Origin: Platerodrilus igneus | Taxonomy: Eukaryota; Arthropoda; Insecta; Coleoptera; Lycidae | Length of the DNA stretch: 64,000 nucleotides | Assembly: GCA_036346225.1 (NCBI GenBank) | Contig: JARFIW010001750.1 | Coordinates: 3,658,001-3,722,000, forward strand | Direction of reading: 5' to 3' | In this document: positions 2,689 to 57,327 of the stretch, in pieces | Numbering within the stretch: position 1 is the first letter of the stretch | Layout of the letters: each line of letters opens with the position of its first letter | Notes under the pieces: generated by a model | Database searches by the model: none | What the model saw: only the letters and a program-made list of their open reading frames with translations | What the model was told of the DNA's origin: nothing | Made by a program: the position numbers and the translations under genes

Positions 2689-2702
2689 GAATAAATATCG
2701 AC

Positions 2703-8248: not shown

Positions 8249-9998
8249 TGATTTTAAATAAAAATTAGAAATTTATGCACACCAGGGGAAGAGAAAAAAA
8301 AACATACAAAATTCCCAATTTCATTAAAAATCAGTGGGGCCAATGTAATGAAAGGGGGTACAAGGCTTCTAAGGGTAGATTTGTGTTAAAAAGGGTGTAT
8401 GCCAAACGACATAATTCATATATCAGATCCAGTAAGTTAAAAAAACTATATTTTGCTGTACTTTACATATGCTAAAGTATTTACCATTTTAGTTTGAAAC
8501 GCATGTGCCAAAGGTAAACAAAATGACTTTATGACGTTGATACAATGCACGGTACTTGAGGTTTTATACTGAGTTGATAATTTATAAGCCATTGAAAGGA
8601 CATTTGCCGTCTGAAAACCGGACGCGTCTATGGATATCTACAATCAACCAAGCGTCCAGGTCTTGTGTGAATATTTTGGCTTTTCATTTAAATAGAATCA
8701 ACTTTGGACGAATTGTAAAATCAAAATTATAAGTGAATAGAAATATAAAATATTATTGGAGAATTGTGAAGTGTTTAGGACCAATGGTAGAAATTATGAA
8801 TGTATATAAAGACTATGGTGAAGGTATTTTGGACACTAGAGTAAAGACAATTGTTATTGGATATTGTATGCTTTTAAAATGTAATTAAGTAAGCTAAGGT
8901 TGTTATGATTATTGCTTAGTGAAGTAAATAAGGAGGATTCTTTTTCGATAATATTCAGTATAAAGACGTGTTTTGCAAACCTGCGTTAAAAGTTGTATAA
9001 ATAATTGATGAAATAAATGTTTTTTGAGTTAAATAGTCTGATTTAATCAAGTGAAAGTACAAGAAGCATCGGTAGTATAAAAGCGGCAGTATAGAAGAAT
9101 ATTTAGAGTGGTTAATAGTGCGACGGAAAGCGGACGATTTATTTAGGTTTGAGCGAGATTGATATTGGATTTGGGACGATTGGTTAAACGGCAGCAGGAG
9201 ATTCGAGTGGATATACAAAGCGACGGCGAAGCAACGACGATATTAATAATTTTGGAGTGATTTGGATAGATTAAAGGCAGTAGGACATCGAGTGGATATT
9301 GAAGGAATAGCAGGGAATAGGTTGATTTGGAATAGGACGGCAGTATAGATTGGAGATTGAATACTGAAAGGCGAGAGGACTGATTGGAGCACGAAGAAGG
9401 AAGACAGGAGAGCAGCATATTACAAGGAAGAATTAACGTAGGGGAAGTAGATACAACGGTTTATTCAAAATTCTAAAATTAGGGTAAATTATTTCAGATT
9501 TGGGGTCAGCAAAATTGTTAAGAACACCTGGAGGCGATACGCAAGTGAACATCGATTGTGAATCCTTATGAAGGTGCGTACGGTGAATAAGATCTAGAGC
9601 CAGAAACATTTAAAGAAGGCATTCATCGCAGTATAATTCAGGTAAGTACCGTGTAATATCTTAAAACGTCAAAATTAAAGTCAGAAATAGTATACATAAA
9701 TTAATTTGGCACCAAGAAACATTGATCAGTAAAATTTGGCCTACACAGTAAATAATTCCATATAAAAGTGGTAAAACAAACGAGTGTGCAGTTTGGTTGG
9801 GCAGTGCACATCTACTCACGATTGAACTCACGGTGAGTAGGTGAACGCCCTGAGATAAAGGTTTCATATAGTCGAGGCATAAAATATAGTGAACAGTAAA
9901 TAGATAACCAACCAAACTTTGCTAAAAGCACATCATATAGAAGTCATATTATTGAATACTAAAAATTAGGGGCGACGACAAAAGTCGTGTATCAGAAT

Positions 9999-10003
<5 letters not shown>
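8249..10003 (+). repeat. Gypsy A 3' LTR (1,755 bp)
   Basis: It starts with TG after the polypurine tract and ends TTTATA at the edge of a TA microsatellite. The last 680 bp are the direct repeat of window bases 1-680. The length is long for a Gypsy LTR. Short reading frames inside it show no recognisable domain. Confidence 0.85.

Positions 10004-10045
<42 letters not shown>
10004..10045. repeat. (TA)n microsatellite
   Basis: About 21 TA units directly abut the end of the Gypsy A LTR, so the element probably inserted into or beside it. Confidence 0.97.
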
Positions 10046-16120: not shown

Positions 16121-16200
16121 CTGAAAGATAAAAATCAAAACAAAATTTTATCCGACATTCATATAAATATAAAAATTTATAAATACTAGTTAACACCAAC

Positions 16201-17704
16201 CTCTAGTAGAGATTACTAGATGAACATAGGGCCATTCTGGGTAATATCTGTGGCATTCAATGACTTTTAATATTTGTCCAAGAGTTAATTCGACAGGTAA
16301 TGCGTGTTCAGAAATTGTTCTACACCGTATAGTTCTCCCAACCAGAGACGTCTCAGATATACATTCGGGTATTGGATATTTCATTTTTTTATTTTGTGGT
16401 GCTGCAGCTGCTTGATTTTTAGCATCTTTTGTGCGTTTATCTTTAGCAGTTAAAGCTGTCGCTACAGTTATATCAGAGTCAATTGCTATTCCCCACAAAC
16501 CTTTAACAGGCTCCATCTTAGCAACCTCCTTCTTATTATTGGTAGGTGTTTCTACTTCAAATGCTGAGGAAAATGAAACATGGAATTCAATTATATCAAC
16601 TAATGATGTGTTGGTACCCAAATACAACAAAGCTTCATTATGTGTTTGTCTGTAAGCTGGATGCAAAGGAAGGTAAGAATGAGATAATACAGAATCTTTT
16701 CCAGAAATAGTTTCATCGGCTTTAACGATGACAGGTACCTTTTCATTTTCCAGTAAAAGTTGTAAAATTAACCTGCGCATAAATCCAGAAATTCCATTAC
16801 GTTGTTGAGTAATGGCATCACATAATATTTTAGCAAGAAACTCTTGATTATCAGGATGACATAGACAACACTTAGAAAGAAACCTAACACATACTTCCTC
16901 AAGTTGCATATGAGCTTCGCTTTTTAAATTTGAACGTTTGGTTAATGGCCTTTTACTTAACCACTGTAAAAGTGGTAACCAAAATAATGAACCATCCTTA
17001 GACCCTAACCAATCACGCATAATTTTTTCGTCACAAATAGTAGCAAAAAATCTTAAAATAGATATCACATTTTCAAGTTTTGCCATTGGATAAACTCCTT
17101 CACCATTGCAATTACAAAACTCTAAGATTGCAGCACATAATTTTTTAGGTAAACCTGAGTCAAGCAATTGCTGTATGGCACTTGGCGATTGACTTACTAG
17201 ACCAATTGTTTCTAAATTTTTTTCTGACAGTTCTAACTGTATAAGATTTTGAATTATCAGTCGTCCATACCACTCAGAATCACATTCAAAGGTTTGCTTG
17301 CTATCATCCGTCATGCTTTCAGGATCTTTGCGATCATCAGAAATTGATGCATCATGATCCGTCGATAAATTGGGAACCAAGACACCCATCATTTGTAACA
17401 AGGAAGAAAATAAATCTGGTTTAATAAAACATAGTGAGCATAGCAAGCAGTTCAGTGAGTGTTGTAAGGCAATGTTATTGCTTGTTAGTGTAGTTAATTT
17501 ATATACCATGTGAAAAAGATTAGTTTCGATAATAGTTGCCAAATTAAAGGATGTTTTTGATTTGTGCATTGTCCACAAAATTGAAGCAATACTTGAAATG
17601 TATGCAGCATTACACAAATTTATATTTTCAGTTGTAACAGCTTCATGGACAGTGGCCATTACCCACCTTAGTAAAATTACAATTCGGTGAAGGGTATCAT
17701 CATT
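16201..17704 (-). CDS. BIRC6: BIRC6 large exon: helical repeats and ubiquitin-like domain
   Basis: A 1,504-nt exon, fully open, with acceptor TATATATTTATAG and donor GTTGGT. It begins NDDTLHRIVILLRWV and encodes armadillo-like helical repeat sequence through ~residue 360 (FLSKCCLCHPDNQEFLAKIL, GISGFMRRLILQLLLENEKV). A Lys-rich low-complexity linker with the NLS-like DKRTKDAKNQ...NKKMKYP follows. It ends with the start of a ubiquitin-like fold (ECISETSLVGRTIRCRTISE, LTLGQILKVIECHRYYPEWP, YVHLVIST). Phase 0 in, phase 1 out. Confidence 0.95.
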
Positions 17705-18618: not shown

Positions 18619-19195
18619 TGAAACGAGCTACTACTACCGCGTTTCTTTAATTTAAAACAAGTAATAATAAAGGTCTTTATTACTCACTGTTCACAAGTCT
18701 AATTAACAGTATATGCCTTAATTATAGATGTTTTCAGTCCACTTAACAATGAAGCACTATTACACTAATGAATTTATAAGCACTAATTTCTTCTTAAACT
18801 AACTTCTTTGCCATAGGTCCATTAACAACACTAACACAACTATTTGTTTATACACTTCTATTTATTTATGTATACTACAAGCTGCATGTACATTAGACAC
18901 AGAATATAACATTTATGTATACTTCTAAAAGCTCAAACTACTATTACTTTACAACGTTATAATTTATATTAGACATTCTAGTATAGACTGACCCTTGCAT
19001 TTCTCAGCGGTCATATATACTCAGATATGACTCATCTTCTGGTAATTACGAGAACCTTCCCGGTCTGGCGAGAATGAACAGTGCTGGCGGCGTTTTGTGT
19101 GTTTGATTGCTAGAAGCATTCTAGAATCATGGAGACTATGCAGACCCTACAACGCTTGTATGTTTGACGGGGTTGCATAATAGTAGCTCGCAACA
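18619..19195 (-). repeat. Gypsy C 3' LTR
   Basis: Direct repeat (577 bp) of 34090-34665. On the minus strand it starts TGTTGCGAGC and ends GTTTCA, i.e. canonical TG...CA. Confidence 0.95.
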
Positions 19196-19208
19196 CTACC
19201 CCCTCTTT
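19196..19208 (-). other. Gypsy C polypurine tract
   Basis: On the minus strand AAAGAGGGGGTAG abuts the TG of the 3' LTR. The TAG at its end is also the stop of the tail frame described at 27923. Confidence 0.8.
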
Positions 19209-19280
19209 AAAACCGTTACGTCTCGTAACTGTAAATACATTTGGGCGCCAATTCGAAGAATGATGACGGTATCGGCAGCT

Positions 19281-20082
19281 TGTTACGTGCCAAATCGGCA
19301 CTTAAACATGTTTTTAGGTTAAGTTTTGATGTACGGAAGTTTCGCGCCATAATTTCAAAAGACGCGGTACGCGGGAATTTTAAATAGACTAGGCGTACTT
19401 CCGATACGTCATAGTGAGTTTGCGCAGATGGCGTGACCCTAGAGGGGTAGACGAATAACTTCGTGCGGATGTGAAAAAGACAAAGAGTGGGGACAAAGTG
19501 GTGAGAGGTTTTTCCATGACGCTCTGAAACGTGGCCTTTTTGCCTTGGTTCGTCGAGTGAAGTGGTCGTTTTTTTGGTAACGTATCGCTAGCTTTACCTA
19601 TGTAGTTCCCTTGCTTGCTTATCTTTTGTTTGTCGCACCTTATACCTTTTTCCCGTCATTCCCTGCATAGGTAGGTAATCAGCAACCTTCGGCAAACTGG
19701 ACTCCACGACCCTGATGTCCATGCCCCGCTAGCAGCTCCGGAGGAACCACCATCTTTAATCCCTCCGGGATGTAGCCGGATATCTTATGTGAGTATATTC
19801 TGTTTGTTAAAATTATTCGCTTTTATCTTTCATTGTTTAATTTTTTATATTTCCGATTATGGCGCAATATAAATTATTGGTGACGTCATGGTAGTTTGCA
19901 ACGCGGAATCTGTAATAAGGTTCGCGCTTCCGGCCGTCAGGACGTTGCATTGCTTTCCTATTCAATGCGCTCGCGCGATGTATCTTATGAACTTTGGTAA
20001 CTGTATTATCGGCTTTTAACTGTATTACCGACTTTAAAGAACTATCACCATATAAATGTATCACTAATATAGAAGTGTAATA
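19281..20082 (+). repeat. Gypsy B 5' LTR
   Basis: Starts TGTTACGTGCC and ends GTGTAATA. Direct repeat of 27120-27918 with about 15 differences, including small indels. Confidence 0.92.
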
Positions 20083-20465
20083 AGAATTGCGCCTTTAATG
20101 TGTGAGGTTAGGGTACATTGTATTAAAAGATGTTATTTAAACAGCTTTCTCACTTAAAGAACTCTACTTTTATTCATGTATGTATACAAATAAGTATTTA
20201 CCTTAATTAGATACCTTTAAACACAGTTTATTACAAAATTATCTATTAAAATATAACTTTTGTTGTTTTCTTAACTTTAAAAGACCGTTTTTTGAAACTT
20301 GAATGCACTGTCTTTTATGTTACATTCTAAAAACTGCATTATTGATTTACCTATTGAACTAATAATATCTTAATTACCTTTACAAGAAAACCTTGTGGTT
20401 AAACTTCCTGATTTACGTTAGTATTGCATATCTCATATATATCGTGTCTCAAATAGAAATCCGAG

Positions 20466-21787
20466 ATGAATGTTTCACATTTAAAATCGCTTGAGTTAAT
20501 TTACGAGATTGAGTGTAGGAATATTATTTCTGCATCAAATCAAAACGATAGGAGATCTCAGCTTAGAGCAATTTTAGCCCAGGAAATGAAGGGCGTTGCT
20601 ATCTCAAAGAAGATCGTTTCGGATTGGCCTCACAATGTATCGGAAATTAGATTGTCTTTGGACGATATATCTGGTATAATAAATAGAACAGATCCTCGTC
20701 CTAGTGATACTGAGTTAGGGCGTTTAGGTTCCAGAATAATGCATGTCAAACAGCGTATCGAATTATTATCTTTATATGACGATGAGCAAGCGACCCAAGC
20801 TAAACAAAGTTTGTTGTCCGAAATATTATTACTTGAAGGAATTGTTCTTGACAAACTCAATCCAAATGCAGACGTAGATATATCGTTACCCTTTTCAAAT
20901 CTCGTACTTGCCCAACCTAAACCATTAGGGAAATCTATACCTGTATACAAATGGGGTCTCACTTTTCAAGGGTTTGATTCGCATGTCTCTTTATCGTCTT
21001 TTCTTGACCGGATTAATGATTTCAAAATCTCTCGTGGGTGTACAGATCAGGACTTATTTGTCTCAGCAGGTGACTTGTTTTCAGACTCAGCGTTGATATG
21101 GTACAGGAACATCCGAGACCAAATTTCTACCTGGGAGGAGTTAGTTGCGTGTTTGAAACGAGATTTCCTACCTCATGGTTATATTACCGACCTTTGGAAC
21201 GAGATACGTAATCGAACCCAAGGTACTGACGAAAATGTTTTTCTTTTATTACCTCACTAGAAGCTTTATATAGCAGACTCGACAAAAAACCTTCAGAATC
21301 TGAAATTATCGATCAGTTACTTAGAAATTTAAACCCGTATTTCTCGGAACGTTTGGCATTACAGCAAATCTCTTCGTTAGCCCACTTTAAAGACCTATGT
21401 CATTCTCTCCAGGAAGTGAAGTTAAGGATTGACAAATATCGTCCGCCCCCAGAGAAACAGTCTGGCCTTTTAGAACCCGATTTAGCTTGCCAAGCTCGAG
21501 CTTCCCATAAAGTATCTACCCTTAACGTTCCTTCTACCGTAACTAATAACTCACTTACCTGTTGGAACTGTAAGAGAAGTGGACATAACTATAATGTCTG
21601 CACATACCCCAGAAATATTTTTTGTTATGGTTGTGGCCGCTCAAATATCTACAAATCTAACTGCACGAATTGTAATCCTAATGTATCGGGAAACTCTCGT
21701 CAAGATATTTCAAATCAGGGCGTGAATATCTCAAGGATCCAAAATCGTCCTCATCCCCAATCATTCAACGGACCCAGACGTCAATAA
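20466..21787 (+). pseudogene. gag: Gypsy B gag
   Basis: ATG 20466 opens a 264-codon frame: an N-terminal coiled-coil-like region, then a capsid (VYKWGLTFQGFDSHVSLSSF, SALIWYRNIRDQISTWEELV, CLKRDFLPHGY). A one-base shift near 21236 moves the gene to the next frame, which runs to 21787 (LDKKPSESEIIDQLLRNLNP, LAHFKDLCHSLQEVKLRI). The nucleocapsid has one good CX2CX4HX4C knuckle (CWNCKRSGHNYNVC) and a second with the His missing (CYGCGRSNIYKSNC). Typical of Mag/Gypsy-type Gag. Confidence 0.88.
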
Positions 21788-21829
21788 ATTCAAATCATAA
21801 AACTACTTCTAACGTTGTACCGTCATTAA

Positions 21830-23868
21830 ATTTATATAATAATAATACCGCTATTGTTAATGTACAAAATGCCTTACCTTCATTAGAGGAATTATGCTAT
21901 ACTACTCCAGCCGAGTGGTCTAAGTGGTTACAAACCGTCAATTCCTTTTATCATAAAAAGACTGTTGCCTCACAACTTGTTAAAAAACCCTTCGATAATC
22001 GTCCACACTTATCTATCTCAATTGGTTCCTTAAATGTAATTGCTTTATTGGACACAGGTTCTTCATGCTCCCTTATAAATAACGAAGGTTTACATCAATT
22101 ATCTAAACAAAATATTAATATTCAAATTATTCCCGAAAAAACTTCCATAAATTTAGCTGACGATAATCAAATACATGTAACGGGTTCCCTTAAGTTAAAA
22201 ATTCGAGTAGAATCTCTTGAACGTGATGTTTTATTTTTGATTGTGCCTGCATTAGCTAATCCCTTTCTACTAGGTGTTGATTTCTGTAAACTTTTAATGT
22301 CACTTTATTTCCAGGATTTTCATGGCAAACCTCTATTAAAACAAATTCTTGTGCATCTACAGGAATATCTAACAAAATCTCTCTTACTGATTCCCAAAAT
22401 ATAACTCTTAACGCTACAATTGACAAATTTCGCAAACTTAATACCTCCGAACTTGGTTGCGTTACAACTGCAACACACGTTATCTCTACAGGTGATGCCC
22501 TCCCTTTTAAGCAACGTCAATATCCCTTATCGCCTGCATTACAAAAGCATTTACATGCTGAAATAGATAAAATGTTAGAATCTGGTGTTATCTCTCCCTC
22601 AAATTCACCCTGGACGTCTCCCGTATTATTAGTTCGGAAAAAGAATGACGAATGGCGTGTCTGTTTTGATGGCAGGAAGTTGAATTCCGTGACTGTTCCA
22701 GATGCTTACCCTCTACCTAGAACTGACTCAATTTTAAGCCGGCTTCGTAACGCAAAATTTATCTCATCTATAGACCTTAGACAAGCTTTTTATCAGATAC
22801 CCCTCGACCTATCTTCTCGTCAAAAAAACTGCTTTTTGTGTTCCAGGCCGAGGTCTTTTCGAATATAATTTTTTGCCATTTGGTCTCTGTAACGCTCCAC
22901 AAACTTTACAACGTACTATGGATCAAACGTTAAGTCCTATCTTACATCAGGTACGTGCCTTTGTATTTTTAGATGATATCTTAGTTATCTCAAGTTCTTT
23001 CGATGAACATATCGCCACATTAAATGAAGTTGCAGAACGTTTAAACGCAGCAGGTTTTAAGATAAACTGGGAAAAGCCTCAATTTTGTTGTTCATCCCTT
23101 ACATTTCTTGGTTTTATTATCGATGGAACTGGCCTACGAGCAGATCCTGCTAAAGTCGACGCTATTACTAAATTTAAAACACCTAAAACCGTTACCGAAA
23201 TCAAACGTTTAATTGGAATGATTAGCTATTATCGCATCTTTCTACCCAACCTTTGAACTATATCTGCACCCATTACCGCTTTAATTAAAAATAAAAAGAA
23301 ATCCCAAACTATCAAGTGGAATTCAGAATCCCAACAGGCTTTCGAACAAATTAAAACATTAATCACTTCAGCACCTATCTTAATTTCACCCAATTTCGAT
23401 GAAAAGTTTTATATACAAACCGATGCCTCGCTTACTGGTTTAGGTGCAATGTTGTTCCAGGTAAGCAATGGTTTAGAACATCCTATCGCTTATGCGAGTC
23501 GTGCCTTAACTTCTGCCGAACAAAAATACTCAGCAACCGAACGAGAATTATTGGGCGTTATCTTTGGCATCGAGAAATTTAGAGGATATGTTGAAGGCAC
23601 ACACTTTACCGTAATCACTGATTGTGCAGCTCTCACGTGGCTTAATAACTTGAAACAGCCCGCAGGTCGTTTGGCAAGATGGAACTTGCGTATATCTCAA
23701 TTCACTTTTGACGTTAGGCATAGGCCTGGCAAATTAAATATCGTACCTGATGCCTTATCTCGTGATGTCGTTTCTCTTAACCTTCCAAATTTAATTCTGG
23801 ATACCTGGTACCTCAATATGATTAAAAAGTTTCCGATAATCCCGACAAATTCCCTACCTTTCGTGTAA
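21830..23868 (+). pseudogene. pol: Gypsy B protease, reverse transcriptase and RNase H
   Basis: Protease: ALLDTGSSCSLIN with the catalytic DTG at ~22050 and FLLGVDF later. A frame change follows near 22300. RT: ESGVISPSNSPWTSPVLLVR, VCFDGRKLN, FISSIDLRQAFYQIPL. Another frame change near 22850 leads to MPFGLCNAPQTLQRTMDQ and the catalytic FLDDILVIS. A TGA at ~23255 interrupts LPNL/TISAP in the same frame. RNase H: FYIQTDASLTGLGAMLFQ, YSATERELLGVIFGIEKF, VITDCAALTWL, RHRPGKLNIVPDALSR. Domain order and motifs are standard; only indels and one stop spoil it. Confidence 0.9.
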
Positions 23869-23869
23869 C

Positions 23870-25043
23870 TAATAATAGACTATATAAATTTGTATCTTCG
23901 TCTCCACATAAAATATCGAATATACCTGAATGGAAACTTGTCGTGCCTACTGCTAACCGCAGTGAGGTGCTCAAATTATGTCACGATGATCCCATTGCTG
24001 CACATCTTGGTGTTACAAAAACTCTCGCTAAAATATCTGAATTATATTACTGGCCCACACTTAAGCAATCTGTTTGTCGCTACATTAAGAGCTGTAAAAT
24101 TTGTGGCTCTCATAAGAGTTCACAAGATGCTCGTCCTGGTTTACTGGGTAACTTTAAACGTGTATCTTATCCCTTTCAATTAATATCGCTTGAATTATTA
24201 GGACCTCTCCCCCGATCGAAAAGAGGTAATCAATATCTTTTAGTTGTTACCGATTGGTTTTCTAAATTTGTTATGGTGCAACCCTTACGTAAAGCTACTT
24301 CCGCTGCCATAATTAAATTCCTAGAACAAAATGTCTTTCTTATCTTTGGTGTCCCACAGATTATTCTTTGTGACAATGGTGCACAATTGATCTCTAAAGA
24401 TTTTCAGAATTTCGTTAAAAGTTACAAAGTACAAAAAATTTGGTTTAACGCAAAATACCACCCCCCAAGTAAACCCTACCGAAAGAGTAAATAGAGTTTT
24501 AATTACCGCTATTTCGTCTATATTGATTCAGACCATACTACATGGGATGAACATATCTTTGAAATTGCTCAAGCTTTGCATACATCTAAACACGAAGCAA
24601 CCCAATTCACTCCGTCATTTCTTGTTTTTGGAAGATATACCCCAATCGATGGGAGTTACTATGGTTTAGTGCCTGACGATACTAACGTAATTGAATTTGA
24701 CGATAAAGTACGTTGGGACAAAGACCAACAATCACTACCTTCTATCTTTAACGACGTTAGAAAAAATTTGTTAAAAGCTTACGAAAAGAGCAAGGACCAC
24801 TATAACTTACGTAAACGAAATATTTCCTTCGCCTTGGGTGAACAAGTTTGGAAAAAGAATTATGTCTTATCGGATGCATCTAAGAAATTTTCCTCAAAGT
24901 TAGCCCCTAAATTCATTCTTTGTAAGGTCACTAGTGTTATTAGTCCCCTTATCTACGAACTTCAGGATGCTGAAGGAAAACGCCAAGGCAGATGGCATAT
25001 CAAAGACCTTAAGCCATTCTCTGCCGACCCAAATGCTACTTAA
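23870..25043 (+). pseudogene. pol: Gypsy B integrase
   Basis: HH-CC zinc domain: HDDPIAAHLGVTKTL and CKICGSH. Core: the first acidic residue sits in LISLELLGPLPRSKRG, where Glu replaces the usual Asp; the second is in IILCDNGAQLISKDF; the third (NPTER-like) is only reached after a one-base frame change near 24470. A second frame change precedes 24576. The C-terminal part has FALGEQVWKKNY and SSKLAPKFILCKVTSVI, a GPY/F-like module, and ends at TAA 25043. Confidence 0.88.
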
Positions 25044-27119
25044 GTTTTTCACGTTCCATTCTCGTTACTATTTACCTAATATTTTTTTGTTCTCACCACT
25101 AATTAGTTAACTTTAATTACTTATTCCTTCTCTCATATAGTATATAATTTCTTAGACGTTTAACTTTACTTATCTTAATTTAGCTATCTTTTTCTTTTGG
25201 TTGACTTTTCCTTGACCATACCGTTAGATATATATCACTTCATTCTCTACACCCTCCAATATAACCTTGTTGTTTCATTTAATCAACCCTCGAACTTTTC
25301 CTATTGCATATTATTTGGTTTTTAGCGTTTTTCTTACGTCATTTAATTTTGTGTGGTAATTGTCGTAACTTTGGTTGAAATAACTCATTGAATTTTTATG
25401 ATTGGTTCTAGCTGATGTTGAGTGAATGCTTTCTTCTTTGGGCTCACATAGGACACGCGTGATCTATGCCATTGAAAGAAATAGTTCATATTCGCAGTTG
25501 CAAAAACTAGGATTGTCTATTCCATGTGTTTTTCTTCTGAATTATTGCAGTCACCCACATTATACTACATCATTATTTCTTTCTTTTTCTACTAAATCAA
25601 CATAACTTATAAACATTTTTTTCATTGTTTTTTATTGAACTTTGTGGTAAGGTGCTATTGCTTCTTATTGTTATCTTATTAAATTCTCGGTTGTTTTAGC
25701 ATATGGGGACAGTGTACCTGTATTTAACTGCTTATAATTGGGCATTTTTGTGTGTTTAGGGTGCTACAGTTTTGAAATACTACCTTAAAACAGTTTGTTT
25801 TTGTGTGAATGTATCTGTAATGATACTTTTAAGTTGTCGTGTCAACTTTTGTCTGATTTTCTTATCGTAGTCAAAGCACTCGTTAGGAAAATGATCGTAC
25901 TAGTTCTCTTAGGAGTCTAGTGAATTTTAAAAATGTGTATACCTTATCTTGTCGGATTAATATCGCAGGTGGTCCTTCAGACTGCGCTGTGTTTAAATAG
26001 GAGCCACTCTACCTTAATTTATTCATTGTCTTGGGTAATAACTAGGCCAATACCCTTGTCTTCTTTATTATCCTTGATAATACCCTTAGTTTTAATATCG
26101 TTATCTTACTGATTACCTATAATAATAACCTTAGTTTAATATCGTTATTTTACCGACTACCGTTAGTAATAATTTTGGTTTAATTTCTCGTTATCTTACC
26201 GACTACCGTTAGGAATAACTTCGAGTTATTTCGCGTTATCTTACCGGTTATCTTTAGTAATAACTTTTGTTTAAATTCATGTTACCTTACCTACTATCTC
26301 TAATAATCACTTTAGCTTAATATCGCGTTATCTTATCTAGTATCTCAAATATAACTAAAGCTTAATACCGTTATCTTATCCATTACCTTTGAGGATAACA
26401 ACTTAAGCTTAATATCATTATCTTATCTACTATCTTTAACAACAATTTGAGATCTTGCCTTATCTTTTTATCGTCCTAACGTGTGGTATCTATGACCAGA
26501 CGTGGGAATTATTTGTTTTTGATATTTAAGTGAAAAAGCTAACTTGATATAGAAATGTAATTTGTCAGGTTAGCATATAAGGATTTAGTAGGTGGTACTT
26601 TTGGTAAATTTGTTGATTCACAACTATGTCATGGACAAGTTTTAAATGCGCATCGTTGGAAAACCAAAGTACCAGTAACAAAATTTGCTAGAGTGCAGAG
26701 TGACTCACTCTATGAACATTTTAAATTTGGGCACTTCTTGCCAAAAAGAAGAATAGTTTTGATGCAACACTCATGTGTGTTTGCACGTAAGAACTTTAAT
26801 GTTAGTTTTAGTTTAGATAGGTTTAGATAGTTTAAGCGACTTGTCGCATCCGTTTTAGTTTAAGTAGTGTTTCATGCTCCCCGACAAATTTGTGCTGTCG
26901 ATAAGTAGTGTAGTCAAAGACTATCGGGCTACCTATTCCGTTTCCTGGTACTTCGGTAGACGTGTTATCGGTCAAAAAACCAGGTGGCGCCTTATATAAA
27001 CATTTTGTAGGTTTTAAGATAGGTTTTATATAGGGTAGTTAGGATTTAGATTTTAAGCTGTTACTGTGTAACAGACTTTTTCTTTTTTTAAGTTTTTTCT
27101 TTTGTGGCTTTGTCGCGAT
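25044..27119 (+). other. Gypsy B non-coding 3' region
   Basis: About 2.1 kb between integrase and the 3' LTR without a long reading frame. No envelope-like frame is visible on either strand. It contains a 45-bp tandem array (26100-26460) and, near 26810-26960, T-rich and GTAGT-rich sequence. It ends TTGTCGCGAT before the LTR; the polypurine tract is not obvious. Confidence 0.75.
26065..26460 (+). repeat. ~45-bp tandem repeat array, about 8 diverged copies
   Basis: TTATCTTA-like cores recur at 26101, 26145, 26191, 26236, 26281, 26328, 26371 and 26419 (spacing 43-48 bp). Each is followed by ACCGACTACCGTTAGTAATA-like and TTTAATATCG-like blocks. Confidence 0.9.
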
Positions 27120-27918
27120 TGTTACGTGCCAAATCGGCACTTAAACAGTGTTTTTAGGTTAAGTTTTGATGTACGGAAGTTTCGCGCCATAATTTCAAAA
27201 GACGCGGTACGCGGGAATTTTAAATAGACTAGGCGTACTTCCGATACGTCATAGTGAGTTTGCGCAGATGGCGTGACCCTAGAGGGTGAGCGAATAACCC
27301 GTGCGGATGTGAAAAAGACAAAGAGTGGGAACAAAGTGGTGAGAGGTTTTTCCGTGACGCTCTGAAACGTGGCCTTTTTGCCTTGGTTCGTCGAGTGAAG
27401 TGGTCGTTTTTTTGGTAACGTATCGCTAGCTTTACCTATGTAGTTCCCTTGCTTGCTTATCTTTTGTTTGTCGCACCTTATACCTTTTTCCCGTCATTCC
27501 CTGCATAGGTAGGTAATCAGCAACCTTCGGCAAACTGGACTCCACGACCCTGATGTCCATGCCCCGCTAGCAGCTCCGGAGGAACCACAACCTTTAATCC
27601 CTCCGGGATGTAGCCGGATATCTTATGTGAGTATTCTGTTTGTTAAAATTATTCGCTTTTATCTTTCATTGTTTAATTTTTTATATTTCCGATTATGGCG
27701 CAATATAAATTATTGGTGACGTCATGGTAGTTTGCAACGCGGAATCTGTAATAAGGTTTGCGCTTCCGGCCACCAGGGCGTTGCATTGCTTTCCTATTCA
27801 TTGCGCTTGCGCGATGTATCTTATGAACTTTGGTAACTGTATTATCGGCTTTTAACTGTATTACCGACTTTAAAGAACTATCACCATATAAATGTATCAC
27901 TAATATAGAAGTGTAATA
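27120..27918 (+). repeat. Gypsy B 3' LTR
   Basis: Direct repeat of 19281-20082 and followed by the AGCT target duplication at 27919-27922. Confidence 0.92.
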
Positions 27919-27922
27919 AGCT

Positions 27923-28014
27923 ATCTCCTCTGGTGCATCCACCGCGTCGTTGGAAATAACAGTCAACACTCTTTTCTTGGTCTTGGTAGGCAACCAGCTG
28001 ATATCAACAAACAA
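27923..28014 (-). pseudogene. Gypsy C tail frame downstream of the macro domain (split by Gypsy B)
   Basis: An open frame on the minus strand starts near 28014 (FVDISWLPTKTKKRVLTV). It reaches the Gypsy B insertion site and continues in the same frame at 19280-19196 on the far side (TVIILRIGAQMYLQLRDV), stopping at TAG within the polypurine tract. The offset between the two parts, 8,642 bp, agrees with the frame. It is about 59 codons long. It lies one frame off the macro domain, so either an indel separates them or it is chance. No domain recognised. Confidence 0.5.
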
Positions 28015-28372
28015 GAACCTGGACGTTGGTTTCCTGGAAAACTACTTCTAGCATATTTCGGACTATCCTCCAATCTAAGCGATCCAGTCCACAACCTAGC
28101 TTGGGCACCGCAAGTTTCGTTACTCCATTTTCCATTATCTAAGCTTTAAGATTCAGCAAAGCCTCCCATAGATGTCCATAACTAGGTCTCTGCCATGAAG
28201 AATTTTTGGTGACCAGATAGTAAACATAACGATTTTTATCCTGAAGAACCAAAGCTTTTCCTACAGTTGGCTGCTGTTGTACTAATTCATCCACACATCC
28301 AAACTTTTTCTTGAAAATAACAGCTATTCCCCTTGACATTTCCAGATCTTGAGTTACGCAATGTGCTAGGTA
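28004..28372 (-). pseudogene. Macro domain (TARG1/OARD1-like ADP-ribose hydrolase) at the C-terminus of Gypsy C Pol
   Basis: Known TARG1 (OARD1/C6orf130) proteins remove ADP-ribose from acidic residues. The family blocks are visible in order: LAHCVTQDLEMSRGIAVIFK (ligand-binding loop), FGCVDELV, then GKALVLQD, RYVYYLVTK, PSYGHLWEALLNL and, past one in-frame TAG at 28139-28141, MENGVTKLAVPKLGCGLDRL (the GCGLDRL loop with the Asp used by TARG1) and DWRIVRNMLEVVF. It ends at TGA 28004-28006. The first strand of the domain (QDLFRAPED) is encoded at the end of the integrase frame at ~29155-29180, before the non-LTR insertion. The frame is identical on both sides. The Lys used by TARG1 was not assigned. 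Confidence 0.85.
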
Positions 28373-29149
28373 AGATAAGAATTTTTTTATTCAGCACTTT
28401 GCCTATATACAGGATGTGATAAGTCATTACACTCTTATTCATATTCTATTGTATATTAAAGTATTCCTTAATGCTATAGAACGACTTATCAAATAGGAAT
28501 TCTTTTAATAAATGCTTATATGTTTTAAGATTGATTGCTTCTTTTATATAATTTGGAATAGCATTGTATATTTTAATGCCAGCTTGTATCGGCGATTTTG
28601 CATAATAAACATTGTGAAATTGTTCTTGATAAAGAAGGTGTCCTTGGCGTGTTTCATGTTCATGTATAGATGAGAGAGTACGAAAATTTTTAATATTTTG
28701 TCTTACATATAACGATATTTTATATATGTATATCCCAATAACTGTCAAGATTTTTTTCTTTAAAAACTAATTTACAGCTAGCTCTGGCATTTAGGTTAAA
28801 TAGCAGCCTAATAATTCGTTTTGTGATACTAGTAATCTTTTCATTTCAGTGGCTTGCCCACAGAGAATAATATTATAGCTTAGATGCGTATATACCAATG
28901 CGTAATATCGTTTAAAGCTTGGGGTTCACTAAGTATTGCTTCATAGTTTTAACATATAATATGATTTGTTAATCTTTTGCATCGATTATCTATTTCTGCT
29001 TGCCAGTTCAATTTAGCATCTATGTAACTTCCCAAGAATAATACTTTTTCACATATTTCAACCTTTGATTTATTCAGCCTAATATCGATGGTGCCTAGAT
29101 GTCTTATTTTATAAAAGTAAACACATTTTGTTTTAGCTATATTAATAAC
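28371..29149 (-). mobile_element. 5'-truncated non-LTR retrotransposon fragment inside the Gypsy C macro domain
   Basis: Encodes the end of a CR1/L2-like RT protein. The RT thumb is VLFLGSYIDAKLNWQAEIDN, then in shifted frames the cysteine-poor C-terminal part (SIHEHETRQGHLLYQEQFHN, IKIYNAIPNYIKEAINLKTY, LLKEFLFDKSFYSIKEY). It is flanked only by a 2-bp TA microhomology (28371-28372 and 29150-29151). It splits the macro domain of Gypsy C. Similar C-terminal sequence is at 48369-48611, so both belong to related families. Confidence 0.85.
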
Positions 29150-30450
29150 TAGTCTTCTGGTGCTCTAAACAGGTCTTGCTGTTTTTCAACACCAGCGCCA
29201 AATCTCGCCTTAGCGGAACCACCATACGCTGCCATAAAACTCTCGAAATCTACATTTGGCTCATGATTAATAACTTGTCGAATGCCATTCTCTTTATTCG
29301 AGCCTTCCTGGTTGTTGCCAGCGTAGGATGTTAAACGGTCAAAGTGTACCACTTTCGGTTTACCATGGGGAGATCTGATCCGGTACACTACATCATTAAT
29401 TCTTTTCATCACTTCGTACGGGCCTTCCCATTGTCTTTGTAATTTTGACGACAACCCCCGTTTTCTTTGTGGATTATACAACCACACCAAATCTCCAGGT
29501 TGATAACCACCTTCTTGTGCTCTCGTGTCATATTGTGATTTCATTCGATCGCTTGCTGCCTGGATATTCTTTCGGACGTTTTCGTGAATGCTATTTGATC
29601 TTTCACAAAGCTTACTAACGTAATCTTCACCTGCGATCTCTTCTCCAGGTTTAAATCCAAACTGAAGATCACATGGTAGCCGCAATTCACGTCCTAGCAT
29701 TACGCAAGCGGGCGAGTATCCTGTGCTGTCATGTACCAAAGATCGGTACGCCAGTAGGAACAAATGTAAATATTGGTCCCAGTCTCGTTGATGTTCAGAG
29801 ACAACTTTGATCAGGTACTTCCCTAACGTCCTGTTCATTCTTTCAACCATTCCATCCGATTGGGGATGAAGTGGTGTGGTTCTAGTCTTCCTGATTCCAA
29901 GGTGCTTGCAGACGTTTTGAAACAACGCCGATTCGAAGTTTCGACCTTGATCGGAGTGTTATTCCAACGGAACTCCAAAACGACAAAACAACTCCCTGAC
30001 TAGTACATCTGAAACCGTCTCGGCTTCTTGGTTCAGTATAGCATATGCCTCCGGCCATTTGGTAAAATAATCCATTGCAACCAAGATGTATTTATTTCCT
30101 TTCTCTGATTCAGGAAACGGACCAGCAATATCAATGGCTACCCTCTCAAAAGGATTCCCCACGTTATACTGTCTCATTGGGGCTTTCCGTTTTGAAACCG
30201 GGCCATTTGCAGAGGCACACAATTCACATTTCCGGCACCACTCCTTCACATCATCTTTGCAGTTCAGCCAATAGAATCTTGCTCTTACTCTCTCGAGAGT
30301 TCTTTTCATGCCAAAGTGCCCTCCGGAAATACCATCGTGCAAGTGCTGCAACACTTCCGGCACTCTGCTTCTCGGCACTATCACTTGAAGTCTCTCAGTG
30401 CCATATTCAAATTCCAGGCGTCGTTTCAAGATTCTATTTTCCAGCATCAA
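29150..30450 (-). pseudogene. pol: Gypsy C integrase
   Basis: Zinc domain: HDGISGGHFGMKRTL and CRKCELC. Catalytic core: VAIDIAGPFPESEKG (first Asp). A TAA near 29957 interrupts just before HSDQGRNFES (second Asp). Then LHPQSDGMVERMNRTLGKYL (Glu). C-terminal: YQPGDLVWLYNPQRKRG and the GPY/F module WEGPYEVMKRINDVVYRI, VVHFDRLTSY. After a ~50-residue linker the frame continues into the first strand of the macro domain (QQDLFRAPED). The in-frame stop at 29149-29151 is created by the non-LTR insertion. Confidence 0.92.
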
Positions 30451-30456
30451 GGTGTC

Positions 30457-30986
30457 TTACTGTGCCCAGTATGCCTTCAGGCTCCTACTTAAAATACTAA
30501 TTTCTTCCCAAGCTGGTCGTTGTCCTCTATTTTTCCACTCAATAATATGTCCCAATTCGGCGTCATTCTCCTGGTCTTCTCGTATTCTTTCGAGTTGCCA
30601 AGTATCATCGGTTACCGTCATTCTATAGATGACACTTATTTTCTCTTCCATCTTGGAGCAATGATTGCAGTTTACTGGACAAGGTCTCCTTGACAAAGCG
30701 TCTGCATTTCGATGGCTAGTTCCTACCCGATGTTCTGTGTCAAAGTCATATTCCTGCAGCCGCTCTATCCACCTTGCAACTTGCCCTTCAGGATTTCGAA
30801 ACTGCAGTAACCATTTCAGTGCAGCATGGTCTGTTCTCAACAGGAATTTACGGCCGTATAAGTACTTATAAAAGTGCTCTACGGATTTGACGACGCCAAC
30901 AGCTCCTTCTTGTCACACAATAGTTCCTTTCTGGCGCGACAAGACCTTGCTGAAATACCCAATACTTTTTCTTGTCCGTCCTGCAC
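30457..30986 (-). pseudogene. pol: Gypsy C RNase H (C-terminal half) and linker
   Basis: Bases 30840-30457 encode LRTDHAALKWLLQFRNPEGQ, WIERLQEYDFDTEHRVG and HRNADALSRRPC, the C-terminal half of RNase H. Bases ~30986-30860 are broken by frameshifts but still show SIGYFSKVL and HFYKYLYG. The following residues up to 30457 are the linker to integrase. Confidence 0.88.
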
Positions 30987-32780
30987 TTAAGAAAGAACGC
31001 CTCCTATAACTGTGTTACTGGCATCGGTATCCAACACAAATTTCCCCTCCATCCGTGGATAACTCAAAATTGGTGCTGTAACTAGTAGCCGTTTCAGTTG
31101 TTCAAATGCACTGTGGCAGTCGTCATTCCAATCATATTCTTGTCCATCTTCAGTTAATTTTGTTAACGGTTTAGCAATGTTCGCAAACCCAAGTATAAAA
31201 CGTCGGTAATATGTGCACAATCCTAGAAAACTGCGTAGTTGGTGTAAATCTACTGGTGTAGGCCACTCTTGTACCATTTTTATTTTGTCAGGGTCAGCTC
31301 TTATTCCGGTCTGCGAAACGACATGTCCTAGGTATTTCACCTCTTTTCCAAACAGGTGACACTTCTTGGGGCTCAATGTAAGGTTTGCCCCCCGTAATCT
31401 TTGGAATATCTCCTCTAGGTTCTTAAGGTGTTCTTCAAAAGACCGGCCTAACACTATCACGTCGTCTAGGTACACCAGACAAGTCTTCCAAGACAGTCCA
31501 CACAGTATTGACTCCATCAATCGTTCAAAAGTAGCAGGGGCATTGCATAATCCAAATGGCATGACCTTGAACTGCCATAATCCAGTTCCAATTGTAAACG
31601 CAGTCTTTTCTTTATCGTTTGGCTCCAAGCCTACCTCTCAGTATCCGCTTTTCAAGTCCAAGGTCGAAAACCATTTAGATCCGGACAGAGTATCCAAAAT
31701 GTCATCAATTCTGGGCAAAGGATAGCTGTCTTTCTTTGTCATATTGTTAAGCCGCCGGTAGTGTACACAAAACCTTGTTGACCCGCCCTTTTTCTTGACA
31801 AGCACTACCGGGGATGCCCATGGACTATTCGAGGGTTCAATCACTCCCTGTTCTTCCATATCGGTGATAATTTGCTCGGCTTCCTTACGTTTTGCCAAAG
31901 GAAGCCGCCTGGGGTGTTGTCTTATCGGTTGCGCATCTCCAGTATTGATCTTGTGTTGCACAACATTCGTCCTTCCTTTCTCACTATCATCCAGTGCAAA
32001 CACACCTCGATATCGTCCGACCAGCTCTTTTACCTTGCCCAGTTGGTCGCCGTTTAATCCTTGACAAGAAGGTATTAACATATCCAGCAATTTCTGTGAG
32101 CAACCGTTGGCTGGTTTATCTTTCGTGTCGTCCACACAACGTTTAATATGGCATACTGGAATGCAACTTCCCACAATCGCGTCTTTCTTCAGGGTCACCG
32201 TATGCGGATTAATGTTCAGCACCATTACTGGTACCATATTTCGAAACTTTACCAGCGTTCTTCCAATCAGTAATCCCTCCTGACCCATGCCCGATTCAGT
32301 TGCTTCCATCATGCATACTTGTCCTTCCCGGAGCGTAGCATCCGGGCGTCCCATTACTATCATTTCCGCCTTCTCGGGTATTTTGATATCGCAAATCATT
32401 CGAACTTGAATCGTCCAGTTACTTGTACCTTGAAATGGAATCTCATCATCATCTATCCGAAGCACATTTTCTTTCATGTTTACATGAAACCCATATTCTC
32501 TCACGAGATCCATTCCCAAGATCACTTCTTCTGTAATTTCAGCTACCAACACCCGATGATTAATTAGTTTGTCCCCAATTGCCAACGTAACGACAGTCTC
32601 TCCGTGAGTACAAATTTTTTCACCACTTGCCGTTCGGAGACACACCGATACAGGTAGCACTTTTCCACGACCAACTAAATCTGGTCTCACAATAGTCCTT
32701 GTTGCTCCTGTATCCACGAGTAATCGGACAATCCTACCATTAATTCTACCATCGATATAAATGCTGTCCAGACTTCCCAT
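30987..32780 (-). pseudogene. pol: Gypsy C protease and reverse transcriptase
   Basis: Protease: VRLLVDTGATRTIVRPDLVG (DTG) and EVILGMDLVREYGF. RT: EQGVIEPSNSPWASPVVLVK, STRFCVHYRRLNNMTKKDSY, WFSTLDLKSGY. A single TGA at 31635-31637, probably from a Trp codon, interrupts the frame, which continues without shift (KEKTAFTIGTGLWQFKVMPF, CLVYLDDVIVLGRSFEEHL with the catalytic YLDD, LTLSPKKCHLFGKEVKYLGH). The RNase H start FVLDTDASNTVIGGVLS follows. Its first ~94 nt overlap gag in the -1 frame. Similar to 412/mdg1-type Pol. Confidence 0.93.
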
Positions 32781-34024
32781 TGACGATGCAGCACGGATGA
32801 TAATCTCCGAGCACTACGCTGTGCTGTCGACGTTCGCCTTACATTGACCTGCTTTAACTCAACCGGTTGTTTCTTTGGTTGAGTACAGCATCTCTGCATA
32901 TGACCAACTTCACCGCAGCTCCAGCATCGCAGACGCCATCTCCGCGGTCGTAATCTTTTCAGCCTTTCCGCTTTTCGCTTTTCAAACACACGGTTTATTA
33001 TTTCATCTATGCTGTTCTGCGATTGCTCAGGTTCTTCTAATGCAGACCGAACTTTGTAACTCATTCTGTGTGATGTCTGCTTAGCTGCTTCAAATTCAAG
33101 CGCATGAGCCAGTGCGTCATCTAACATTTTTGGCCGTGCTAATCTTAGCGCTTGCTGTATTTCACTGTCTTTAATGCCATCCACAAATGTTTGATCAGCC
33201 AGTTGTTCGAGGAAACTATCTGGTGCCGTTGGGTATGCCAATCTAACTAATCTGGCGATGTCAGCTTCGAATTCTTGCAGGCTTTCACTTGTCTTTTGCG
33301 AGCGGTTCTTAACTTGTGCGTGGTAAACCTGTTGAAGGTGAGCATCTCCATATCTCATCTCAAGCTTCGATGTTAAAAGGCCGTAATCATTCTGCTGGTG
33401 ATCAGGAATCGTTTGTAAGATGTTAAGAGCTTCCCCCCGTAGGGCCACTATTAAGGAGATAGCCTTCTCTTTGTTGCACCAACCATTGGCTATTGCCGCA
33501 GCTTCAAATTGTTTCAAATATGTGGGCCAAAGTGTTTTGCCATCAAATGTGAGTGGTTTCACTTTAAATTTAGACGGTATGGACTCGCTTCTTTCCATGG
33601 TTCTTATTTCTGGAATGTTCTCATTTACAACTTGATTTGCTATTTCAAGTGGCCGTGTTGTTAGTGAAATCACCTGTTCTTGCAGCCTCATCATATCTTC
33701 TTCCATTTTTACCAATTTACTGTCCAACTTTTGCTCAACTGTTTTTACCTGTTCAGTGAAATCTTCTTTCAATGCAATGGAGCTTTCCATTAATCTTTGT
33801 TCTAACATGGCTGTATTTTCACTTAACTTTTCTATCTTCTCAGCATTTTCACTAAGTGTCACTTCCATACCGTATTTAAACTCTTTAAGGGTCGATTCCA
33901 GTTCAACTGACCTCACTAAATTTTCATAGAGTGTCACCTGCATTTCGGATTTAAAATCCTTAAGGAAGTTCATTAAAGTTTCTGCTTTCATTTTACTTTG
34001 ATTACTTGTAACTGGCATATACAA
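32687..34024 (-). CDS. gag: Gypsy C gag
   Basis: An intact 445-codon frame. Residues ~15-130 are a coiled coil (KIEKLSENTAMLEQRLMESS). Residues ~150-330 match a Gypsy capsid (VKPLTFDGKTLWPTYLKQFE, NEK-like ALRGEALNILQTIP, LEMRYGDAHLQQVYHAQVKN, LADQTFVDGIKDSEIQQAL). A nucleocapsid CX2CX4HX4C knuckle follows (CWSCGEVGHMQRC) in a basic context. Its 3' end overlaps the protease frame by 94 nt, implying a -1 programmed frameshift. This is the only uninterrupted gene of the element. Confidence 0.9.
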   Translation of the reverse strand: MYMPVTSNQSKMKAETLMNFLKDFKSEMQVTLYENLVRSVELESTLKEFKYGMEVTLSENAEKIEKLSENTAMLEQRLMESSIALKEDFTEQVKTVEQKLDSKLVKMEEDMMRLQEQVISLTTRPLEIANQVVNENIPEIRTMERSESIPSKFKVKPLTFDGKTLWPTYLKQFEAAAIANGWCNKEKAISLIVALRGEALNILQTIPDHQQNDYGLLTSKLEMRYGDAHLQQVYHAQVKNRSQKTSESLQEFEADIARLVRLAYPTAPDSFLEQLADQTFVDGIKDSEIQQALRLARPKMLDDALAHALEFEAAKQTSHRMSYKVRSALEEPEQSQNSIDEIINRVFEKRKAERLKRLRPRRWRLRCWSCGEVGHMQRCCTQPKKQPVELKQVNVRRTSTAQRSARRLSSVLHRQWEVWTAFISMVELMVGLSDYSWIQEQQGLL

Positions 34025-34072
34025 ACTACTTAAATGTCTTTAGACTTGTGTTTTAAATTAATCACTATATAC

Positions 34073-34089
34073 CCCACATCTGACACCAG
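34073..34089 (-). other. Gypsy C putative primer-binding site
   Basis: On the minus strand TGGTGTCAGATGTGGGG directly follows the 5' LTR. It resembles the TGGTGTC-type sites of mdg1/412 elements. Confidence 0.65.
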
Positions 34090-34660
34090 TGAAACAAGCT
34101 ACTACTACCGCGTTTCTTTAATTTAAAAGAAGTAATAATAAAGGTCTTTATTACTCACTGTTCACAAGTCTAATTAACAGTATATGCCTTGTTTATAGAT
34201 GTTTTCAGTCCACTTAACAATGAAGCACTATTACACTAATGAATTTACAAGCACTAATTTCTTCTTAAACTAACTTCTTTACCATAGGTCCATTAACAAC
34301 ACTAACACAACTATTTGTTTATACACTTCTATTTACTTATGTATACTACAAGCTGCATGTACATTAGACACAGCATATAACATTTATGTATACTTCTAAA
34401 AGCTCAAACTACTATTACTTTACAACGTTATAATTTATATTAGACATTCTAGTATAGACTGACCCTTGCATTTCTCAGCGGTCATATATACTCAGATATG
34501 ACTCATCTTCTGGTAATTACAAGAACCTTCCCGGTCTGGCGAGAATGAACAGTGCTGGCGGCGTTTTGTGTGTTTGATTGCTAGAAGCATTCTAGAATCG
34601 TGGAGACTATGCAGACCCTACACCGCTTGTGTGTTTGACGGGTTGCCTAATAGTAGCTCG

Positions 34661-34665
<5 letters not shown>
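34090..34665 (-). repeat. Gypsy C 5' LTR
   Basis: 576-bp direct repeat of 18619-19195, TG...CA on the minus strand, with about 14 differences. Confidence 0.95.
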
Positions 34666-38003: not shown

Positions 38004-38059
38004 CGTAAAGGGGCGAGGGGCATTCAAAGCAGACCCATAGGAACTGCTAAACTGCTTCT

Positions 38060-39295
38060 AGTCTAATACTATAGAAGCTGTTGCATTAACATGTGTAATT
38101 AGCAAATAAAAGGATATCTATATATTGGTGCAATGTAAATTCAAAATATTAAATTATAGTAATACTGAATCAAGTTTTCCTGATCATTTTCGGAATCAAT
38201 TGAATGAGAATCTTTTTGTATGTGTTATGGTTTCTAAATAATTTCTTTTATTGTCATTTATTTTCTTACCTAAAATTTCCACATTGTTAAAATCAAATTA
38301 ATGCATTTTATCTATTGAGTGATCTGCTAAGATGGTACATTTTTTGCTATTTATTTCAACAGAATATTTATGGAAAAATACAAATGACCTATTACCCACT
38401 ATCCTCTTCCTCTTTGTAAAATAACCAACAGATTTAATTTTCGTTCACTATACTTGAACTACTCATCTCCAGACAAAATTAGGTCACCAGAATATTTATG
38501 TTCGTAGATGTGCTTATGGAGGTACTGTTTGGAAACTTATATACACACCTGGGCCATCATCACAATTGATTTCGTAGATCATATAAGTTTTATTCTCTTC
38601 TTCTATTGTTGGTCTTAAATTGGTAAAACAAGTTTTTTAATAATTATTAAGCTTGTATCTATTTGTATATTGTGTGCTTTTAAACTTTTGTTTTATTCTT
38701 TCTGATAGTCCCAGTGTGTATTCTATTCCAAGCAAATTATCTTTTATTTTTTGTTTGTTTTTGTTTTCTGATTTATTAATAACTCATCTATTTTTGTTTT
38801 AATTAAGGGTTCCTAAAATGCTTTAGATTAATAGATATTTTTTAATATATTTTAATTTTTGTTATTTTTTGGTTTATGTTTACAATGTGAAAATTGCAGT
38901 GTTTGATCAACTAGGTTTATTTATAACGTTTCTTTTATACTGTGCCGGTACAATAGAATTATTATAAAATTAAGGTATCTACAACTTCACGCTTCTTTAT
39001 TATGTCAATTGGTGGTTATCTCTACTCTTTCGTTATGTGAAATCGACAAATCTGAAATGAAATGGTTTTGTTTATTTCTTTTTCTATCATAAATTGAAGT
39101 CAGGGGTGGTAGGAACTAAATTTATTAAGTGTTTCATCCATTTTATTTTCAGAGAGGCATTTTAAATAATCACAAGTACTTTTAAAAATATATGTTTATA
39201 ATTTAGTTGTTTTATTGTTTGTTCCTCTGGAACTAAGTTAGCAATAATGGATGATATTGAAGTTCCCCTTATGAATTCTACAAACGGTAGGTGAC
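38060..39295 (-). pseudogene. Penelope-like element: RT C-terminal part and GIY-YIG endonuclease
   Basis: Read on the minus strand in several frames from 39295. The RT block FIRGTSISSIIANLVPEE is like the G-S-P-L-S-x-I-x-A-D-L block of Penelope RTs. Then PTTPDFNL, the RT-endonuclease linker with LSERIKQKFKAH-like sequence, and CFTNLRPTIEEENKTYMIYE with GVYISFQT (GIY-YIG core). The His/Asn-rich C-terminal region ADHSIDKMH...FDFNNVEILGKKINDN ends it. Stops in every frame. Penelope-like elements are the usual source of an RT fused to GIY-YIG. Confidence 0.82.
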
Positions 39296-39299
39296 CATT

Positions 39300-39608
39300 T
39301 ATTGTTAAAACAAATAACAAAAAATGTACCGCTTTAACAGTCCACTCAATAAATAAAATGCATCAATTTGATTTTAACAATGTGGATATTTTGAATAGGG
39401 AAATAAAGGACAATAGAAGAAATTATTTAGAAACCATACACATACAAAAAGATCCTCATTCAATTAATTCCAAAAATGATCAGAAAACTTCATTCAATAT
39501 TACTATAATTTAATAATTTAAGTTTACATTGCACCAATACACAGACATCCTTTTGTTTGCTAATTATACATGTTAAATCCACCAGTTCTTATAGTATTAG
39601 ATAGTAAG
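39300..39608 (+). repeat. Inverted copy of the 3' end of the Penelope-like element
   Basis: 39300-39608 is the reverse complement of ~38060-38365 with moderate divergence. It encodes the same GIY-YIG C-terminal block (KCTALTVHSINKMHQFDFNN, VDILNREIKDNRRNYLETIH) on the plus strand. It directly abuts the upstream end of the RT fragment, as in the inverted terminal-repeat structures described for Penelope. Confidence 0.85.

Positions 39609-53558: not shown

Positions 53559-53624
<66 letters not shown>
53559..53624. repeat. (AAT)n then (TA)n microsatellite
   Basis: About nine AAT units followed by about 20 TA units, ending at the left tip of transposon 2. Confidence 0.95.
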
Positions 53625-53626
<2 letters not shown>

Positions 53627-53629
<3 letters not shown>

Positions 53630-55036: not shown

Positions 55037-55040
55037 TATA

Positions 55041-57325: not shown

Positions 57326-57327
57326 TA

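Follow-up and report, generated by a model that had tools for sequence, protein, structure and literature searches.

The window analysed here is a stretch of 64,000 nucleotides from the lycid beetle Platerodrilus igneus (contig JARFIW010001750.1, positions 3,658,001 to 3,722,000). Its minus strand carries a Ty3/Gypsy retrotransposon with, in this order, a 5' long terminal repeat (LTR), a gag-like open reading frame (ORF), protease, reverse transcriptase, RNase H and integrase. In the lineage to which it belongs, Pol ends with an integrase, a macro domain of the TARG1 type and a CCCH zinc finger (Table 1). Its membership in Ty3/Gypsy is indicated by the LTR pair around gag-pol and by an integrase with a GPY/F module downstream of the reverse transcriptase and RNase H, in the order of the Pfam matches. 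The protease to RNase H region consists of three ORF pieces (31638-32813, 30987-31637 and 30457-30912), and the rve core is divided between the two integrase pieces, being below the Pfam cut-off in each.

The integrase frame (29149-29958, minus strand) ends in ...FGAGVEKQQDLFRAPED. Past the GPY/F module it continues for about 45 residues (...NHEPNVDFESFMAAYGGSAKARFGA) and then reads GVEKQQDLFRAPED. The residues QQDLFRAPED are the first strand of the macro domain and correspond to VKGDLFACP of TARG1 in a profile match; the 779-base insert that follows therefore interrupts the macro domain close to its N-terminus. The far side of the insert reads LAHCVTQDLEMSRGIAV...YYLVTK...GCGLDRLDW...VLVC. 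Here the piece 28139-28390 (minus strand) gives YLAHCVTQDLEMSRGIAV...RYVYYLVTK, and farther on in the same frame GCGLDRLDW is found at 28070-28096 and VLVC ends at 28007. A sequence-only reading of the window had claimed that the integrase frame passes GPY/F into QQDLFRAPED and resumes past the insert with RYVYYLVTK and GCGLDRL, and both claims are borne out. The label of the insert as a non-LTR fragment is that of the sequence-only reading; the ORF within it (28446-28766) has no Pfam match.

The CCCH finger starts about 12 codons past the macro domain and is split at 27920 by a nested plus-strand element, which has AGCT at both outer flanks. Because the finger remainder, the Pol tail and the 3' LTR follow the nested element, a single element's LTRs enclose both the macro domain and the finger. 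The earlier placement of the macro domain inside the LTRs thus stands, with different boundaries: the repeat at 27119-27920 is ruled out as the 3' LTR of the macro-bearing element, since it is the 3' LTR of the nested one. The claim that Pol ends in the macro domain holds as far as the fusion behind the integrase is concerned, but the zinc finger follows. Two stops (28139-28141 and 28004-28006), the insert and the nested element interrupt the window copy; the nested element itself has an integrase ORF and a weak match to a protease. At loci L061 and L062 the Pol frame passes the polypurine tract and stops inside the 3' LTR.

Table 1. Features of the macro-bearing element and of the sequences inserted into it (window positions).
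Feature	Position	Strand	Basis or remark
5' LTR (TGTTGCGAGC...) of macro-bearing Ty3/Gypsy element	34090..34665	minus	97.4-97.6% identity to 18619-19195
Putative primer-binding site, immediately inside 5' LTR	34072..34088	minus	Position and TGG start, by eye
Gag-like ORF, weak zinc knuckle	32687..34039	minus	Pfam zf-CCHC 17.7 bits, below cut-off of 20.8
Protease, reverse transcriptase, RNase H	30457..32813	minus	Pfam PF13975, PF00078, PF17919, PF17917
Integrase: H2C2, rve core, GPY/F (Integrase_p58_C), two ORF pieces	29194..30456	minus	Pfam PF17921, PF22938 above cut-off
Macro domain first strand (GVEKQQDLFRAPED), in-frame fusion behind integrase tail	29152..29193	minus	Matches TARG1 in profile match
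779-base insert within macro domain	28371..29149	minus	Coordinates and non-LTR label from the sequence-only reading
Remaining TARG1-like macro domain	28004..28372	minus	Lys84 equivalent 28205-28207; Asp125 equivalent 28082-28084
CCCH zinc finger, first part (SVDCYFQRRGGCTRGDS), interrupted by nested element	27920..27970	minus	Read from sequence
Nested LTR element inserted in zinc finger	19280..27920	plus	LTRs 19280-20084 and 27119-27920, 97.8% identity
CCCH finger remainder (CRYRH...), Pol tail, polypurine tract	19196..19279	minus	Read from sequence
3' LTR of macro-bearing element	18619..19195	minus	97.4-97.6% identity to 5' LTR

The macro domain is of the TARG1 type. The piece 28139-28390 matches human TARG1 (C6orf130) with E=4.8e-19 among PDB sequences, and all five PDB sequences matched by it at E up to 0.1 are TARG1/C6orf130. 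The macro profile matches TARG1 at 7.5e-49, with the next match at 1.9e-11, and a relative has the TARG1 fold. Equivalents of the catalytic residues Lys84 and Asp125 are both present in the window copy and are kept in 42 and 40, respectively, of 43 related proteins. Residues peculiar to the element clade include Trp, Ala and Cys, which are fixed in dereplicated element rows at three columns where other rows mostly differ. The zinc finger model PF00642 is above cut-off in two of nine proteins scanned (P0008 and P0138) and below it or unlisted in the other seven.

The source genome, of 2.71 Gb in 1723 contigs, contains many copies. The macro piece was matched by all 150 scored candidates, the only ones checked from 8402 first-look candidates, and the open frames there reach 1418 amino acids. 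At 30 loci selected by the integrase piece, a macro match lies downstream in every case, that of the window lying across its insert. Integrase and macro matches are 3-6 nt apart, in frame and stop-free between in 28 of the 29 other loci; the insert is seen only in the window copy (L031), the gap being 2-6 nt in the 29 others. LTR-like sequence is present farther downstream in 29 of the 30, and the pattern C-x7-C-x5-C-x3-H is open in 15. A mild bias is expected in this set because the last 14 residues of the integrase query are the first 14 of the macro domain. Among 30 loci selected by the macro piece, 24 have the integrase in frame, 28 have an LTR downstream and 16 have an open CCCH pattern. 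Searching the genome for OARD1 with P0156 gave 150 matches; the integrase adjoins the macro domain in all ten loci read, and in these the cellular TARG1 of the source genome is not distinguishable from element copies.

Related proteins come from searches that yielded 120 listed of 2130 matches, 8 matches, and 120 listed of 353. Profile scans of the 240 proteins listed gave a macro match in 132, of which 46 were assigned to the element family by eye from GPY/F, CCCH or FxxFM motifs and similarity. GPY/F is in the same ORF in 29 of these 46 and the CCCH pattern is present in 30. All members with a named organism are beetles (Aromia, Exocentrus, Molorchus, Gonioctena, Leptinotarsa, Diabrotica, Callosobruchus, Acanthoscelides and Brassicogethes); the organism is not given for many rows. 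The ORFs of Acanthoscelides and Brassicogethes contain macro domain and finger and no integrase, and the Brassicogethes finger deviates from the pattern. At least three beetle families carry the element macro domain: Nitidulidae, Cerambycidae and Chrysomelidae (three lineages looked up). An IMG/VR scan with P0013 gave three pattern matches and no relatives.

Phylogenetic reconstruction from 75 macro domain rows drawn from these proteins places the 30 element rows (29 family proteins and the window piece) on one side of a branch with support of 100/99 and a stem of 0.55 changes per site, the bootstrap being not fully settled. The 45 remaining rows are cellular or unnamed TARG1-like proteins and include no known beetle OARD1. 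Within the rows used, the tree shows a single origin of the macro domain. In a tree of the integrase region, made by a quick method from 126 rows, one set of 26 includes all 18 rows that bear a macro domain, with Shimodaira-Hasegawa-like approximate likelihood ratio test (SH-aLRT) support of 99; the eight macro-less rows in this set comprise seven with short or cut tails and one with a long tail (P0022). Seventeen of the 126 rows have tails of at least 60 residues and no macro domain. Integrase and macro identities of 11 distinct proteins correlate (r=0.50; 9 of 2000 permutations as high), which is reasonable, if not strong, evidence that the two descended together. The genome copies and the separate macro clade support the earlier view of an element of Metaviridae type whose Pol gained a TARG1-like macro domain at its C-terminus by capture.

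For the loci selected by integrase, ratios of nonsynonymous to synonymous changes (pN/pS) were calculated from copies with at least 80% amino-acid likeness to the medoid copy (60% in the last test). Both the finger and macro codons 1-77 have a pN/pS below 1. These loci are preferred because the macro-selected ones were chosen by the same protein; over the query part the latter gave 0.06 and 0.11 in two analyses, values that are not relied on, and in one of these analyses only three integrase rows passed, too few for use.

These features suggest, with a probability of about 0.6, that the Pol-borne macro domain acts with the integrase to hydrolyse mono-ADP-ribose and so removes PARP-type marks of the host, either ahead of integration or while it takes place. 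The macro domain would be made together with Pol and would travel with the integrase in the particle and the pre-integration complex, where an integrase-borne hydrolase would be placed at cDNA ends and target chromatin. Its substrates may be mono-ADP-ribose on Asp or Glu of element or chromatin proteins or, alternatively, phosphorylated ends of cDNA or RNA. The CCCH finger, judged from its Pfam class, most likely binds RNA and may aid localisation or packaging. TARG1 cleaves mono-ADP-ribose from Asp and Glu, O-acyl-ADP-ribose and phosphorylated nucleic-acid ends, according to the available part of a review (PMC7050489), which also suggests that RNA ADP-ribosylation might aid recognition of transposon or viral RNA.

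Several observations weigh against an active hydrolase. For macro codons 78-114, pN/pS is 0.36 and its interval (0.13-1.15) spans 1; it is 0.55 (0.31-1.03) for the C-terminal macro part when frame-shifted rows are retained, and 0.81 (0.31-4.31) for the last 20 codons before the LTR. The likeness filter lowers pN: each macro part lost 11 of its 29 rows to it, and the finger lost 14 of 29. Among the 30 integrase-selected loci, the macro match is weak or shortened by frame shifts or deletions in 10, and the Lys and Asp motifs are found in 24 and 22, the rest being shifted, cut or changed. P0008 (Diabrotica), P0148 and P0150 form a supported branch without Asp125, and P0148 also lacks Lys84; catalysis thus appears dispensable in some branches. 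In the integrase tree, the long tail of P0022 has no recognisable macro domain, and 88 of the 126 rows have tails too short to judge. The Pfam Macro model is below cut-off or unlisted in all nine proteins scanned. Since Pfam is likewise silent on 28139-28390 and on the ORF 27963-28145, which overlaps it in another frame, annotation based on Pfam overlooks this macro domain. Finally, we know of no host ADP-ribosylation of such elements.

The main rival to an eraser is a reader, in which the macro domain would bind ADP-ribose on chromatin and direct integration to ADP-ribosylated sites. It would suit a domain that stands C-terminal to the integrase, as chromodomains do in chromoviruses, and the Asp-less branch, in which a switch from eraser to reader is possible. 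The ALC1-like class includes both readers and erasers, as the available part of the review describes (PMC7050489). Overall we consider a reader unlikely, because Lys84 and Asp125 are kept in most related proteins and a pure reader would need neither. An improbable alternative is that the macro domain serves to remove free O-acetyl-ADP-ribose or to influence host metabolism, and does not target defence marks. The cleavage of O-acyl-ADP-ribose by TARG1 (PMC7050489, available part) is in its favour, but the integrase fusion suggests action in the integration complex and not free in the cell. That the domain is a cellular macro exon, caught in a single event and since kept as a functionless passenger, has slim prospects: the 17 long-tailed integrase relatives manage without a macro domain and the interval for codons 78-114 spans 1, but the first macro part and the finger have pN/pS below 1, the catalytic residues are conserved and the domain occurs in several beetle families. 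A single processed OARD1 copy that landed in one Gypsy copy by chance, as the interrupted window copy by itself could suggest, is refuted by the macro match in all 30 integrase-selected loci, by open frames among the scored genomic copies and by the separation of the element clade from the 45 other rows, the source genome's own OARD1 not being among them; the sequence-only reading had named macro-less copies, or a similarity confined to one locus or to a recent OARD1 retrocopy, as evidence against itself, and the copies found all carry the match, at many loci and in at least three beetle families.

Returning to the eraser, a wider proposal can be advanced tentatively. A beetle-wide Ty3/Gypsy lineage may long have carried an active Pol hydrolase that strips PARP marks from cDNA ends or the integration complex, with one branch having lost the catalytic acid and become an ADP-ribose reader for target choice. 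If so, ADP-ribosylation would be a genuine anti-transposon defence in insects. If the domain is active, the idea that PARPs restrain transposons becomes directly testable and the family offers natural variants, erasers and possible readers, that can be compared. The Leptinotarsa protein P0153 is named ADP-ribose glycohydrolase OARD1-like isoform X2 at NCBI, yet has an integrase p58 C-terminal domain; a beetle gene with such a name can be a transposon fragment, which is a warning for annotation.

The window has other repeats and ORFs. Direct repeats at 1-681 and 9324-10004 (98.8% identity) look like LTRs of another element, and the ORFs 820-2337 and 2619-3299 between them have weak Pfam matches to apolipoprotein and aspartyl protease, below cut-off. 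A 504-residue ORF at 16190-17704 (minus strand) matches BIRC6 with 63.9 bits against a cut-off of 27, the sole cellular gene family above cut-off among eight ORFs in the same Pfam scan. Inverted repeats with 87-95% identity and arms of about 310-490 bases at 53623-57329 and 38055-39608 are possibly foldback or nested elements. An ORF with a reverse transcriptase match (49314-50675) and a Ty1/Copia-type Pol piece (61887-62951; Pol_BBD, weak gag_pre-integrs) are on the minus strand.

The literature searched, outside subscription papers and Repbase, contained no report of a macro domain of any kind in a Ty3/Gypsy element, and hence none of a Pol-fused, TARG1-type, CCCH-linked one; to our knowledge no LTR retrotransposon family has an ADP-ribose-removing enzyme inside Pol. 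The element shares its LTRs, protease to integrase order, H2C2 and GPY/F with Ty3/Gypsy elements annotated as transposon 412 or K02A2.6-like, a label taken from annotation names, the tree being made from the integrase region. These relatives have an RRSxRxRxPPxRYG-like tail in 14 of 17 macro-less long tails (by eye), whereas the window lineage has the macro domain and finger. In chromoviruses the integrase has a C-terminal chromodomain, which reads histone methylation. Both groups thus have an extra chromatin-related domain at the integrase C-terminus, but fold and ligand differ, and the element has enzyme-like residues. Viruses are known to use macrodomains against ADP-ribosylation by the host. 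The macrodomain of alphavirus nsP3 is likewise a macro fold in a selfish genome, but is placed under the MacroD class in the available part of the review (PMC7050489), and the alphavirus rows shown are only 13-18% identical to the model. Fish epsilon-like endogenous retroviruses encode macro-domain proteins and resemble the beetle element as retroelements with a macro domain; in the available part of that source (PMC4977317, which cites Basta et al. 2009) these are additional ORFs, whereas the beetle element has its macro domain, one of the TARG1 type, fused to Ty3/Gypsy Pol. The DarG antitoxin macrodomain, of the ALC1-like class, is the next-best profile and fold match after TARG1, with 22-26% identity; it has the Lys and lacks the acid of the dyad (PMC7050489, available part). 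From TARG1/OARD1/C6orf130, an ALC1-like macrodomain hydrolase, the element form differs in its position behind an integrase and before a CCCH finger and in forming a distinct clade.
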